Source: Acidobacteriota bacterium (lineage in GTDB: Bacteria > Acidobacteriota > Vicinamibacteria > Vicinamibacterales > UBA2999). Taken from it: a stretch of 64,000 bases of DNA. Numbering within the stretch: the first letter of the stretch is position 1; every line of letters begins with the position of its first letter. Under the pieces are notes generated by a model. The model did no database searches. It was not told the origin of the DNA and saw nothing but the letters and a program-made list of their open reading frames with translations. Below are positions 45,111 to 48,676 of this stretch, piece after piece. Where the stretch lies: the NCBI GenBank assembly GCA_947482665.1, contig CANKJK010000001.1, forward strand, positions 1 to 64,000, given 5' to 3'. A program made the position numbers and the translations under genes.

Positions 45111-45983
45111 TCAGGCAGACCCAGGCTGCACCGGCATGGGCCCGTCTTCCGGGGGCAGGGTGGCGAAGAAGCGGTAGAGCAGCCACCCATCCAGCAGGCC
45201 CACCGCCACCATGATCAGGTAGGCCTTCGGGCCGATGATGACCTTCATCTCGCCCATCAGCCGCGAGAGACCGAACGCCACCACCCACGCATCAAAGCTC
45301 ATGCAGACCCGGCGGAAGGTTTCTGGCCGGATGCGCTGAATCAACTGGGCCCCGATGGGCACGCCGATGAGGATGCTGGGCAGGATCACGGGAATCAGAT
45401 GCAGGCTCTCCTGCCCGATGAGACCGGCATACAGATAGGCCACCGCCGTGAGCGACGATTCCGCCAGGCGAATTACGCCGAGCGCCGCCCGGAAATCTCG
45501 TTTCGTGAGGCCCTGGTTGCTCAGCATCACGGCCAGCGGCGGGCCGGAGATGGTCGTGACCGAATACAGCACGCCCACGGCCCCGCCGAAGACCAGGCCG
45601 GCCGAGCGCTCGGATTTGATGGGGCGGCGGAAGCCCGCAGCCTGGATCAGGATGAGCGGCAGGATCGTGACGTAGGTGATGAGCTTGAGCGGGGAGGGGC
45701 TGACGTGCGACACGAGGGACGTGCCGACGAGCACGCCCGGCACAAGGCCAATCACGATGGGCACGACACGCTTCCAGACGTTGGGCAGCGCGTCGCGGTT
45801 GACCCACAGGACGTAGCTGTTGAGCACGACCTCGATGAGGATCAGCGCCGGGTTCAGGACCCGATTCGTCAGAAACAGCAGCGCGAGCGGGACCGTCAGC
45901 GACGAAAAGCCGTAGCCCAGCGCGCCGTTGACGATGGCAGCGCCCAGGGTAATAGCGAGTAGTGGGATGACGTAACCGTCCAT
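45111..45983 (-). CDS. TSUP family (TauE/SafE-type) permease, probable sulfur-anion transporter
   Basis: This 290-aa membrane protein has about eight hydrophobic helices and the TSUP layout of two repeated halves. The family signatures are ALGYGFSSLTVPLALLF and VGVLYSVTTISGPPLAVML. Characterised TSUP members export sulfite or sulfoacetate, or import sulfate or thiosulfate. The family alone does not give direction or substrate. Its own Cys-rich leader and attenuator, and divergence from cysDN, strongly suggest a role in sulfur supply, such as sulfate uptake. That inference rests on regulation and position. The ATG at 45983 follows the attenuator terminator by about 35 nt. Confidence 0.85.
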   Translation of the reverse strand: MDGYVIPLLAITLGAAIVNGALGYGFSSLTVPLALLFLTNRVLNPALILIEVVLNSYVLWVNRDALPNVWKRVVPIVIGLVPGVLVGTSLVSHVSPSPLKLITYVTILPLILIQAAGFRRPIKSERSAGLVFGGAVGVLYSVTTISGPPLAVMLSNQGLTKRDFRAALGVIRLAESSLTAVAYLYAGLIGQESLHLIPVILPSILIGVPIGAQLIQRIRPETFRRVCMSFDAWVVAFGLSRLMGEMKVIIGPKAYLIMVAVGLLDGWLLYRFFATLPPEDGPMPVQPGSA

Positions 45984-46017
45984 GACGTCGGATGCCTGGC
46001 CTTTCCTTGCCCTGCCG

Positions 46018-46058
46018 AAAAAACAAAAAGCCCGGGCGGCGCTTGACCGCTCCGGGCT
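46018..46058 (-). terminator. intrinsic terminator of the TSUP-gene attenuator
   Basis: On the minus strand AGCCCGG pairs with CCGGGCT. A further 4 bp extends the stem past a one-base bulge to a 7-nt loop, and TTTTTGTTTTTT follows. It lies between the Cys leader peptide and the permease start codon. Confidence 0.82.
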
Positions 46059-46085
46059 CGAATCCTTGGTGTTCGGTGGTGCCGG

Positions 46086-46166
46086 TTAGTTACATGGGCA
46101 CACGGAGACGGCTCGGAGGCGGACCGAGATTGGACAACAACACGCCGGACAGGCCGTCAGAAACAT
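46086..46166 (-). CDS. Cys-rich leader peptide of the TSUP permease gene
   Basis: This is a 26-codon ORF on the minus strand, opening MFLTACPACCCPIS and ending VCPCN plus TAA. It has six cysteines (residues 6, 9, 10, 11, 23, 25), including three in a row. The codons are TGT except for one TGC. A predicted -10 lies 8 bp before the ATG, so the transcript is nearly leaderless. The stop is followed after 27 nt by the terminator hairpin. I infer a ribosome that stalls on Cys codons when Cys-tRNA is scarce. Confidence 0.75.
   Translation of the reverse strand: MFLTACPACCCPISVRLRAVSVCPCN
46111..46122 (-). promoter_or_regulatory. candidate antiterminator strand, TSUP leader
   Basis: On the minus strand CCGCCTCCGAGC can pair with the 5' arm of the terminator (GCCCGGAGCGG), giving ten pairs with one bulge and one mismatch. 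It starts 12 nt after the Cys triplet. The imperfect pairing makes it a candidate only. Confidence 0.45.
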
Positions 46167-46174
46167 GAGCCGTG

Positions 46175-46204
46175 AGTCTGCACCCGAGCGTGACGGGTTG
46201 TCAA
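46175..46204 (-). promoter_or_regulatory. promoter of the TSUP leader
   Basis: On the minus strand TTGACA is followed by an 18-bp spacer and CAGACT, 8 bp before the leader ATG. The -35 is perfect and the -10 weak. The -35 lies in the 9-bp palindrome GTTGTCAAC. Confidence 0.55.
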
Positions 46205-46234
46205 CGACCCTGGTGGACGATACCGAACGCCGAG

Positions 46235-46243
46235 TGCTAAAGT
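46235..46243 (+). promoter_or_regulatory. extended -10 of the cysDN leader
   Basis: TGCTAAAGT is an extended -10 (TGn plus TAAAGT). TGGACG at 46214-46219, 18 bp upstream, is a partial -35. The predicted start site is a few bases before the leader ATG at 46256. Confidence 0.5.
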
Positions 46244-46255
46244 GTTGACCAGTCC

Positions 46256-46333
46256 ATGGTTCCGACGCTTTGCCCGTGCGCGTGTTGTTGTTGTCCGAGG
46301 CCCTGTGAGGGGTCCCGCGCCCGCGGTCTGTAG
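46256..46333 (+). CDS. Cys-rich leader peptide of cysDN
   Basis: This is a 25-codon ORF opening MVPTLCPCACCCCPRPC and ending in TAG at 46331-46333. It has seven cysteines (residues 6, 8, 10, 11, 12, 13, 17), four of them consecutive TGT codons. The frame is independent of cysD and terminates 94 nt before it. The Cys cluster is followed by an antiterminator candidate and then the terminator. This suggests that cysteine supply, sensed as charged Cys-tRNA, sets read-through into the sulfate-activation genes. Confidence 0.8.
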   Translation: MVPTLCPCACCCCPRPCEGSRARGL

Positions 46334-46389
46334 TCCGGATGGACGGAAGCGCACTGAACCATCGCGCAGCAGATCGAAGGCCCGGGACC
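46311..46389 (+). promoter_or_regulatory. candidate antiterminator pairing in the cysDN leader
   Basis: GGTCCCG (46311-46317) is complementary over 7 nt to CGGGACC (46383-46389), which forms most of the 5' arm of the terminator. The first strand starts 16 nt after the last of the four tandem Cys codons, so a stalled ribosome would leave it free. A ribosome at the stop codon would cover part of it. Confidence 0.55.
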
Positions 46390-46409
46390 ATGGTCCCGGG
46401 TTTTTTTTT
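46381..46409 (+). terminator. intrinsic terminator of the cysDN attenuator
   Basis: CCCGGGACCATGGTCCCGGG is a perfect 20-bp palindrome that folds into an 8-bp stem with a CATG loop. Nine T residues follow. It lies 18 bp before the cysD ATG, so it can only act as an attenuator for cysDN. Confidence 0.92.
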
Positions 46410-46427
46410 GTGTCCTGAGTAACTGAG

Positions 46428-47372
46428 ATGCCGACCGCACACACCGTTACGGGCCAGGCGGCCACCCCGCCGCCCCAGTTGGACCACCTCCGGAGGCTGG
46501 AGGCGGAAAGCCTCCACATCATCCGGGAAGTGGTGGCGGAGTTCGAGCGCCCCGTGATGCTGTACTCCATCGGGAAGGATTCGTCCGTCATGCTGCGCCT
46601 GGCGCAGAAGGCCTTCTACCCGGCGCCTATCCCGTTCCCGCTGCTGCACATCGACACGACCTACAAGTTCCGCGAGATGATCGAGTTTCGCGACCAGATG
46701 GCCGCGGAAGTGGGCGCGAAGCTCATCGTGCACATCAACAAGGACGCGATCGCCGACGGGACGCAGCCGTTCAAGCTCGGCACGCAGCGTTGCTGCCAGC
46801 TGCTCAAGACGAAGTCGCTCCTGGACGGACTGGCCGAAGGGCAATTTGACGCTGCGTTCGGCGGCGCCCGTCGCGACGAGGAGCGGTCGCGCGCCAAGGA
46901 GCGCGTGTTCTCGCTGCGGGACGCCCACGGCCAGTGGGACCCGAAGCGGCAGCGGCCCGAACTCTGGAGCCTGCTGAACAGCCGGCTGAATCCGGGGGAG
47001 AGCATCCGCGTGTTTCCCCTGTCGAACTGGACCGAGATCGATATCTGGCAGTACATCCACGTGGAGAACATCCCGGTGGTACCGCTTTATTTCGCGAAGG
47101 AGCGTGAGGCGATCGTGCGCGGAGAGTCCATCATCGTCCGCGAACAGTCCTTCGTCCCGATGCTGCCCGGTGAGAAGACGCAGATGGTCCGGTGCCGGAT
47201 GCGGTCGCTGGGCTGCTCGCCCTGCACCGGCGCCATCCGGTCGGACGCCGACAGCGTGCCCAAGATCATCGAAGAACTGGTCGCGGCCAAGAACTCCGAA
47301 CGGCAGCTGCGCATCATCGACCACGACCAGGATGGCTCCATGGAAGTGAAGAAACGCGAGGGGTACTTCTAG
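46428..47372 (+). CDS. cysD: sulfate adenylyltransferase subunit 2
   Basis: The 314-aa CysD is the catalytic half of ATP sulfurylase, forming adenosine 5'-phosphosulfate from sulfate and ATP. PP-loop features are [17 protein letters not shown] (SGGxDS-type, here SIGKDS) and [20 protein letters not shown]. Further conserved stretches are [49 protein letters not shown], and [16 protein letters not shown]. Its TAG overlaps the cysN GTG. Expression is probably limited by the attenuator just upstream. Confidence 0.96.
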
Positions 47373-48676
47373 TGAAGGGTCTCCTCCGGATCTGCACCGC
47401 CGGGAGCGTGGACGACGGGAAGAGCACGCTCATCGGGCGCCTCCTGCACGACTCGCAGGCTGTCTATGAAGATCAGATCAGCGCCGTCCAGAAGGCCTCC
47501 AAGAACCGTGTCGCCGGGCCGATCGACTTCTCGCTCTTCACCGACGGCCTCAAGGCCGAGCGCGAACAGGGCATTACGATCGACGTCGCGTACCGCTACT
47601 TTGCGACCGCCCGCCGGAAGTTCATTCTGGCGGATACGCCCGGCCACGAGCAGTACACGCGGAACATGGCGACCGGGGCGTCCACCGCGGATCTGGCCAT
47701 CCTGCTGGTCGACGCTCGCCAGGGTGTCAAGGACCAGTCGCGGCGGCACGCCCGCATCGCCCGTCTGCTCGGCATCACGAACTTCGTCGTGGCGGTCAAC
47801 AAGATGGACCTGGTCGGCTTCGACAGGGCCATCTACGACGGCATCTGTGCGGAGTTCGCGCAGATTCTTGACGGCGCGTCCTTTCACGCCATCCCCATGA
47901 GCGCGCTCGAAGGCGACAACGTCATCACCCTCAGTGAACGGACACCCTGGTTCACGGGGCCGAGTCTGCTTGAGCACCTGGAGACGGTGGACGTCGACAC
48001 GGACATCACGGGCCAGCCGTTCCGGTTCCCCGTGCAGCTCGTGCTGCGGCCGCATCAGGATTTCCGTGGCTACGCCGGGCAGATTCAGTCGGGTCTGGTG
48101 CGGCGGGGCGATGAGGTAACGGTCTGGCCGTCGGGCCGGTCGACGGCGGTCAAGCGGATCGTGACCTACGACGGCGATCTGGAGTCAGCCTTTGCGCCGA
48201 TGTCGGTCACGCTGGTCCTGGAGGACGAGATCGATATCAGTCGCGGCGATACGCTCGTCTCCGGACCCGTCCAGGTGGGGCAGCGCTTTGAGGCAGACAT
48301 CGTGTGGATGGACGAGCGGCCGCTCGACCCCACGCGGATGTACGTGCTCAAGCACTCGACGCGCGTGGTCACGGCCGAGGTCGACCGCGCCTTCACGCTG
48401 AACGAGATCCATTCAGCCGTGGTGCGGACCTCGCGGCCGATCATCTTCGACAGTTACCGGGACGTTCGCGCCACGGGTAGCTTCATCCTGATCGACCCGG
48501 CGACCAACTTCACGGCGGGCGCCGGCATGATCGGCGTGCCGACGCGGGACGAGCGCAGCGGGCGAGCCAGTGAGGGCGCGGCCGAGCGGCTGGCCCGCAT
48601 CGCCAGAGCCGCGGCGACCGACGCCGAGGCTGTGGAAGCCGTGCGCGCGGCACTCGAAGCCATCATCGGGCGCTGA
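47372..48676 (+). CDS. cysN: sulfate adenylyltransferase subunit 1, GTPase
   Basis: The 434-aa CysN couples GTP hydrolysis to sulfate activation by CysD. The EF-Tu-like G domain has TAGSVDDGKSTLIGRLLHD (P-loop), ADTPGHEQYTRNM and AVNKMDLVGF, then two beta-barrel domains. The GTG at 47372 overlaps the cysD stop (TAGTG). The length covers CysN only, with no fused APS kinase (CysC). No cysC, cysH or cysIJ follows, so the later steps of sulfate reduction are encoded elsewhere. Confidence 0.95.
   Translation: MKGLLRICTAGSVDDGKSTLIGRLLHDSQAVYEDQISAVQKASKNRVAGPIDFSLFTDGLKAEREQGITIDVAYRYFATARRKFILADTPGHEQYTRNMATGASTADLAILLVDARQGVKDQSRRHARIARLLGITNFVVAVNKMDLVGFDRAIYDGICAEFAQILDGASFHAIPMSALEGDNVITLSERTPWFTGPSLLEHLETVDVDTDITGQPFRFPVQLVLRPHQDFRGYAGQIQSGLVRRGDEVTVWPSGRSTAVKRIVTYDGDLESAFAPMSVTLVLEDEIDISRGDTLVSGPVQVGQRFEADIVWMDERPLDPTRMYVLKHSTRVVTAEVDRAFTLNEIHSAVVRTSRPIIFDSYRDVRATGSFILIDPATNFTAGAGMIGVPTRDERSGRASEGAAERLARIARAAATDAEAVEAVRAALEAIIGR

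Follow-up and report, generated by a model that had tools for sequence, protein, structure and literature searches.

A divergent pair of leaders between cysD and tauE

The window, by which we mean the whole 64-kb stretch of DNA that was analysed, carries cysD, encoding a sulfate adenylyltransferase subunit, cysN, encoding the GTPase subunit, and on the opposite strand a permease gene of the tauE/safE family. In the intergenic region the putative promoters of the cysD and tauE leaders lie back to back with ~10 bp between them, and each is followed by a short reading frame rich in cysteine codons and by an intrinsic terminator. The features, in order of position, are as follows.

45111-45983, minus strand: tauE/safE-family permease gene, start at 45983 (PF01925)
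46018-46058, minus strand: intrinsic terminator before tauE, hairpin 46058-46029 plus a T-rich run (-22.8 kcal/mol)
46086-46166, minus strand: second leader ORF, 26 codons, 6 Cys, three consecutive TGT (scan; matches to models R1 and R2)
46175-46204, minus strand: putative tauE-leader promoter, -35 TTGACA 46204-46199, 18-nt spacer, -10 CAGACT 46180-46175 (promoter scan)
46214-46243, plus strand: putative cysD-leader promoter, -35 TGGACG 46214-46219, 18-nt spacer, -10 TAAAGT 46238-46243 (best match, weak hexamers)
46256-46333, plus strand: cysD leader ORF, 25 codons, 7 Cys, four consecutive TGT at 46283-46294 (sequence; match to model R1)
46296-46317, plus strand: predicted strand 1:2 hairpin, 46296-46297 with 46316-46317 and 46299-46304 with 46309-46314 (predicted fold of the post-run segment)
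46311-46330, plus strand: strand 2, predicted 5' side of the antiterminator, 46311-46317, 46319-46321 and 46324-46330 (duplex prediction; fold with the RNA ending at 46391)
46370-46389, plus strand: predicted 3' side of the antiterminator, 46370-46376, 46379-46381 and 46383-46389 (duplex prediction; covarying pairing in relatives)
46380-46409, plus strand: intrinsic terminator before cysD, hairpin 46380-46401 and T-run 46401-46409 (-17.6 kcal/mol)
46428-47372, plus strand: cysD, sulfate adenylyltransferase subunit (PF01507)
47318-48676, plus strand: cysN, GTPase subunit, EF-Tu-type GTPase (PF00009 and related; the start is that of the scanned reading frame only)

The leader ORF at 46256-46333 translates to MVPTLCPCACCCCPRPCEGSRARGL followed by a stop, and its transcription start site was inferred from the predicted promoter at 46214..46243. 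The original prediction had described here a 25-codon frame with seven Cys codons, four of them consecutive TGT, and a perfect hairpin with nine T at 46381-46409, ending 18 bp before cysD. Both are present: the palindrome CCCGGGACCATGGTCCCGGG fills 46381-46400 and occurs once in the 3.53-Mb genome, nine T follow at 46401-46409, and the cysD ATG lies 18 nt beyond, at 46428. The seven-nucleotide strand said to pair with the 5' arm of the terminator is likewise exact, GGTCCCG at 46311-46317 being the reverse complement of 46383-46389. The predicted antiterminator extends beyond these 7 nt, with 46319-46321 facing 46379-46381 and 46324-46330 facing 46370-46376, and the end of its 3' side is the 5' arm of the terminator. 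This longer pairing, the tauE-side leader (ORF 46166-46086, MFLTACPACCCPISVRLRAVSVCPCN) and the probable near-leaderless start discussed below had no place in the original prediction.

Such an arrangement is rare by chance. A scanner for short ORFs of at most 45 amino acids with at least 4 Cys and a strong terminator within ~135 nt, run on both strands, finds exactly two places in the window, the cysD leader on the plus and the tauE leader on the minus strand, while 40 block-shuffled windows gave 10 places in total, three with at least 5 Cys and one with at least 6. The genome contains 30 places with four consecutive TGY codons, of which only 46283-46294 lies in a short ORF with a terminator after it. 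The model search described in the next section found only the same two leaders in this genome; four weak matches (L064-L067, E 0.1-0.6) were rejected, having no Cys ORF followed by a terminator.

Leaders of the same kind across the order

Model R1 was built from nine cysD leaders and carries no gene information; model R2 derives from ten leaders, themselves R1 matches, that represent a second subtype. The cysD leader of the window scores 109.9 bits against R1, of which it is one of the nine members, and the tauE leader, which is in neither training set, matches both R1 (E=0.0014) and R2 (E=5.4e-7). R1 matches 26 of the 43 genomes of the family and 90 of the 162 genomes of the order, R2 matches 85 of the 162, and the two combined match 104 of the 162.

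We read 142 matched places, which are part of the order-level matches. Left out before genes were counted were L107 (no run of three Cys, and a queA-like gene), L092 (no Cys ORF), L188 (identical to L012) and short model matches to the opposite strand of terminators. Downstream genes were assigned by tblastn with seed proteins, with family searches on examples, and 132 of the 142 leaders received an assignment: siroheme synthase / precorrin-2 dehydrogenase (39), CysD (24), TauE (18), a TlpA-like thiol protein (11), CysK (9), DUF2061 (8), a RimK-like ATP-grasp protein (8), CysH (6), YeiH (6) and SUMT (3). Genes of sulfur or cysteine metabolism thus lie downstream of 113 of the 142 leaders, a total that takes the permeases TauE and YeiH at their family names and includes DUF2061 plus cysH. 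The ten leaders without assignment include two at contig ends (one of whose genes starts like SUMT), two before outer-membrane receptor-like proteins, and others before a porin, an NMT1-like ABC binding protein, a 1-Cys peroxiredoxin and two proteins of uncertain family (L249, L302). The tenth place, L307, lacks a Cys ORF and is probably a false match, and an assignment of L249 to TlpA was dropped, since it consisted of a 39-bit match 724 nt away.

Several of the downstream genes are observations in their own right. The RimK-like ATP-grasp protein follows a Cys leader at eight places (L089:1705-2949 on the plus strand, L087, L090, L270, L271, L274, L288 and L289); it falls far below the NCBIfam cut-offs, its PDB matches are weak, and a role as a ligase in cysteine or thiol metabolism is possible. 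The TlpA/ResA-like thiol protein carries an extra N-terminal part at its 11 places (L106, L256, L259, L260, L269, L290, L291, L294, L295, L297 and L299). A small DUF2061 membrane protein (PF09834) stands between the Cys leader and cysH in eight of eight cases (L194, L198, L200, L204, L213, L214, L220 and L222). The outer-membrane receptor-like proteins at L275 and L286 combine a carboxypeptidase-regulatory domain with a beta barrel, and the NMT1-like binding protein at L304 possibly serves sulfonates. The L249 and L302 proteins, ~230 aa long, are alike by eye only and have no Pfam match above the cut-off.

cysD loci of relatives and of Terriglobia

A search for CysD gave a match in 28 of 40 relatives. 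Thirty cysD loci were taken, our own included, of which 27 had at least 250 nt upstream. Of these, 12 of 27 carry a leader, defined as an ORF with at least 3 Cys plus a terminator, and 15 of 27 do not; two of the 15 (L014, L016) do have a leader, but at a greater upstream distance, in front of cysK or tauE in the same gene cluster (L253, L095). Retention of cysDN with loss of the Cys run or hairpin, which the original prediction had named as evidence against itself, does therefore occur among relatives, and the element is common, not universal. Where leaders are present, the Cys codons are conserved and the body of the peptide is variable, as had been anticipated. The nine aligned leaders share one order of parts: start, TGT run, GGACC, GGTCCCGGCGCT, linker, AGCCCGGGACC...GGGCT and T-run.

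A wider set was scanned independently of the models. It holds 78 named loci in which cysD is preceded by 250 nt or more; judged by their titles most are acidobacterial, and cultured strains are among them. A Cys ORF followed by a terminator stands upstream of cysD in 38 of the 78, a count within which L129, L157 and L178 are perhaps chance matches. Requiring at least 4 Cys leaves 36 of 78, compared with 4 of 78 in reverse complements, 8 of 312 in dinucleotide shuffles and 15 of 748 at other places of the same loci.

Two further arrangements were seen at these loci. At L253:485-1852 (plus strand) a cysteine synthase fused to a JAB domain has its own Cys leader and lies directly before cysD. Upstream of cysD in L006 and L013, Cys-rich ORFs with the common ending CRCACIGPxxVR run on the minus strand towards a divergent gene; the scan found no terminator after them, and they are perhaps another mode of control.

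Leaders of Terriglobia keep the Cys runs, and their stems are different. Among 120 genomes from one family, model R3, built from 11 Terriglobia cysD leaders, matches 13, at 15 places: 11 before sulfite reductase, 3 before cysD and 1 before a gene of the PAPS-reductase family (L322). The sulfite reductase at L313 matches Pfam NIR_SIR, and the other ten are 74-78% identical to it. In 396 genomes drawn evenly from the phylum R3 found only 2, with 7 candidates scored per genome, so this draw says little about distribution.

Anatomy, codon use and start of the leaders

Of the 142 leaders, 137 could be parsed, the parse requiring a Cys ORF and a terminator. The leader peptides have a median of 5 Cys. 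The run is most often three codons long (55 leaders), followed by four (33), five (20), two (16), six (8) and one (5). Counted from the end of the run, the stop codon lies at a median of 51 nt, the terminator at 87 nt and the best antiterminator strand at 12 nt.

The run is biased in codon choice: TGT makes up 369 of its 482 Cys codons (77%), compared with 46 of 347 (13%) in the downstream genes; in seven ORFs of the window the figure is 3 of 24. As the models include the run sequence, part of the bias could stem from how the leaders were found. RNAalifold pairs the Cys run (46277-46294) with the conserved linker at 46345-46379 (consensus GCAACACGCG, alignment A1), and this modelled pairing may partly explain the preference for TGT.

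The first in-frame start codon lies a median of 9 nt (quartiles 8 and 9) past the end of the best -10 hexamer. It is GTG in 87 of 134 leaders, ATG in 33, CTG in 7 and TTG in 7, and a Shine-Dalgarno-like motif precedes it in 19 of 134. In 134 of 136 leaders a start close to the -10 box shares the frame of the run. An ATG or GTG 5-12 nt past the -10 box is found in the frame of the run in 117 of 136 and in the other two frames in 0 of 136 and 0 of 136, counts that, like those of codons, are not independent events since the leaders are related to each other. The promoter cut-off itself does not separate real from shuffled sequences (136 and 132 pass), whereas the mean scores do (7.48 and 5.59). 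From the distance between -10 box and start codon, the leaders are probably near-leaderless.

Pairing of the leader strands

The duplex of strand 2 with strand 3 is stronger within leaders than between them, with a mean of -35.35 kcal/mol for matched and -29.59 kcal/mol for mismatched strands. None of 5000 permutations reached the matched value, also when permuted within downstream-gene class. In the first 39 leaders, with 20000 permutations each, the corresponding counts were 0 overall, 676 within subtype A and 330 within subtype B. Since relatedness can give such results, sister leaders were compared. Among 67 independent sister pairs differing in both strands, the matched duplex was the stronger in 39 and the weaker in 21, with 7 ties (Wilcoxon p=2.6e-4). 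Grouped by divergence, the 13 most distant pairs split 12:1 and the 26 intermediate ones 18:8, whereas in the 28 closest the matched duplex was not better (9 vs 12); a reversed-strand control gave 30:30.

For the hairpin of strand 1 with strand 2, sister pairs gave p=0.064, and in sets of 20000 permutations the matched value was reached by none overall, by 5 in subtype A and by 10418 in subtype B. Column-wise covariation in the small alignments A1 and A5 (9-10 sequences) was not significant in the shuffle control, and the pairing in both drops when the partners are slid. The compensatory change that had been predicted is thus seen in the antiterminator, in sister pairs and between subtypes, while the column tests were not significant and support for it in the strand 1:2 hairpin is weak.

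Proposed mechanism and alternatives

Taken together, the comparative evidence supports the view of the cysD leader as a transcription-attenuating cysteine sensor. We consider it highly likely, from sequence comparison, that the window holds two divergent cysteine-sensing transcription attenuators which belong to a regulon across this order of Acidobacteriota, and the signal sensed is probably Cys-tRNA. Transcription would start at, or a few nucleotides before, the leader start codon, so that the ribosome would follow the polymerase at once. When Cys-tRNA is scarce, the ribosome would stall on the TGT run and cover strand 1, leaving strand 2 free to pair with the segment that ends in the 5' arm of the terminator; the terminator would then form too late, and cysDN (or tauE) would be transcribed. 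When Cys-tRNA is plentiful, the ribosome would reach the stop codon and cover strand 2, the hairpin with its T-run would form, and transcription would end ~20 nt before cysD. Seen directly in the sequences are the parts, the order and spacing that the leaders keep, the covarying antiterminator pairing, the preference for TGT and the company of sulfur genes; start sites, translation, stalling, termination in the cell and the signal are inferred.

The predicted folds follow this scheme while the terminator is incomplete. When the RNA stops shortly after the 5' arm, 70% or more of the arm is paired upstream in 117 of 137 leaders if a ribosome occupies the Cys run, and in 8 of 137 if it stands at the stop codon. 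Shuffled controls already reach 168 of 411. Without a ribosome the count is 83 of 137, so an untranslated leader might read through, a state that an early leaderless start would presumably make rare. Once the 3' arm is present, the stalled state breaks the terminator in only 14 of 137 leaders (3 of 685 in shuffles). The antiterminator state costs a median of 10.6 kcal/mol (17.1 in shuffles), 4.3 for the cysD leader and 9.7 for the tauE leader. As the equilibrium fold usually favours the terminator even when the ribosome is stalled, the switch would have to be kinetic. Kinetic switching is assumed for other attenuators as well. Besides these folds, the closest sister pairs, the column tests, the 15 cysD loci that lack a leader and the finding of only two leaders in this genome count against the scheme.

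The preference for the terminator at equilibrium, seen in most leaders, would also suit translational attenuation of the kind reported for the leaderless poly-Cys ORFs of mycobacteria, with which the present leaders share Cys-run ORFs, here probably near-leaderless, before sulfur genes. A stalled ribosome would then alter translation downstream, and the hairpin would be no working terminator. We regard this as improbable, because terminators are enriched also in the unbiased scan of the 78 cysD loci (the 137 parsed leaders of 142 have one by construction), and because the covarying strand pairs with the terminator arm and not with a ribosome-binding site.

Transcription attenuation also accounts better for the codons and the gene contexts than does an action of the peptides themselves, for example in metal or thiol binding, with the hairpin ending their own short transcript and the downstream genes using other promoters. 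Short, Cys-rich ORFs with a terminator after them are what such peptides would look like. Outside the Cys residues, however, the peptides differ between genomes, the TGT bias is a feature of codons and not of peptides, the strand that follows the run in the RNA covaries with the terminator arm, and leaders of the same kind precede many different sulfur genes, all of which makes acting peptides very unlikely. Equally remote is a riboswitch or protein-bound RNA with the Cys ORF as a by-product of conserved RNA sequence: part of the run could indeed be kept for its pairing with the linker, but the run shares its frame with a start close to the -10 box, the Terriglobia leaders keep the Cys codons while their stems differ, and no Rfam family reaches threshold (an Rfam 15 search of 45500-47000 returned only NsiR1, E 0.75, 19.1 bits vs a gathering score of 39).

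Beyond the order, we lean, with some reserve, towards a broader reading of transcription attenuation, in which near-leaderless poly-Cys attenuators are the main control of the path from sulfur to cysteine in Acidobacteriota, forming an RNA-only cysteine regulon. Its scope would take in permease, ATP sulfurylase, APS/PAPS reductase, siroheme synthesis, sulfite reductase and cysteine synthase, together with the thiol proteins and the RimK-like ATP-grasp enzyme, and it would use two or more subtypes of terminator within one order and, in Terriglobia, a third architecture.

Comparison with known systems

Cysteine control of sulfur assimilation is usually described via protein regulators such as CysB and CymR. 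The leaders suggest that a soil phylum uses an RNA switch coupled to translation, repeated before most steps of the pathway. The trp, his, leu and ilv operons are the textbook class of ribosome-mediated transcription attenuators. With these the present leaders share a peptide in which the regulated amino acid is abundant, a choice between antiterminator and terminator structures, and biosynthesis genes downstream. They differ in responding, as proposed, to cysteine, in their probable leaderless start and in being repeated before many operons of one pathway, and their strand 1:2 protector is weakly supported. As a class the mechanism is known, but how far it extends and which form it takes here seem to be new. 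Unusual features are the probable leaderless start, the arrangement as a divergent pair and a regulon that would cover most steps of cysteine synthesis. The leader can also serve as a sequence tag that links the RimK-like ATP-grasp and TlpA-like proteins, DUF2061 and the outer-membrane receptors to cysteine supply.

A full-text literature search found, by title or abstract, no cysteine attenuator in Acidobacteriota, which is no proof of absence since most subscription papers lie outside its coverage. Among attenuators predicted in Acidobacteria, almost none has an associated function in the available text of one survey (PMC2965389). A close parallel is uORFC-8-2, a candidate cysteine transcription attenuator before cysS in Rhodobacterales (PMC8632094). 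As far as the available part of that source describes it, uORFC-8-2 likewise has tandem Cys codons, two stems, a U run and a proposed Cys-tRNA-dependent read-through, with two Cys codons, mostly UGC, before cysS alone in one alphaproteobacterial order. The leaders described here, in contrast, have longer TGT runs before many assimilation genes; cysS, which was not among the seed proteins, does not appear among the assigned downstream genes.

In mycobacteria, leaderless poly-Cys sORFs (Canestrari 2020) are said, in the portions available, to regulate the translation of downstream genes (PMC13236596, PMC9031893, PMC9094748), and the Cys leaders of Mycobacterium cys operons are described, in the accessible part of the source, as having no conserved terminator (PMC1262725). 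Shared with these is an ORF with consecutive Cys codons before sulfur or cysteine genes, leaderless there and presumably near-leaderless here. Unlike the mycobacterial leaders as so described (PMC1262725), those studied here have a terminator and a covarying antiterminator. They appear to join two features that have been reported apart, near-leaderless poly-Cys ORFs and attenuation at an intrinsic terminator.
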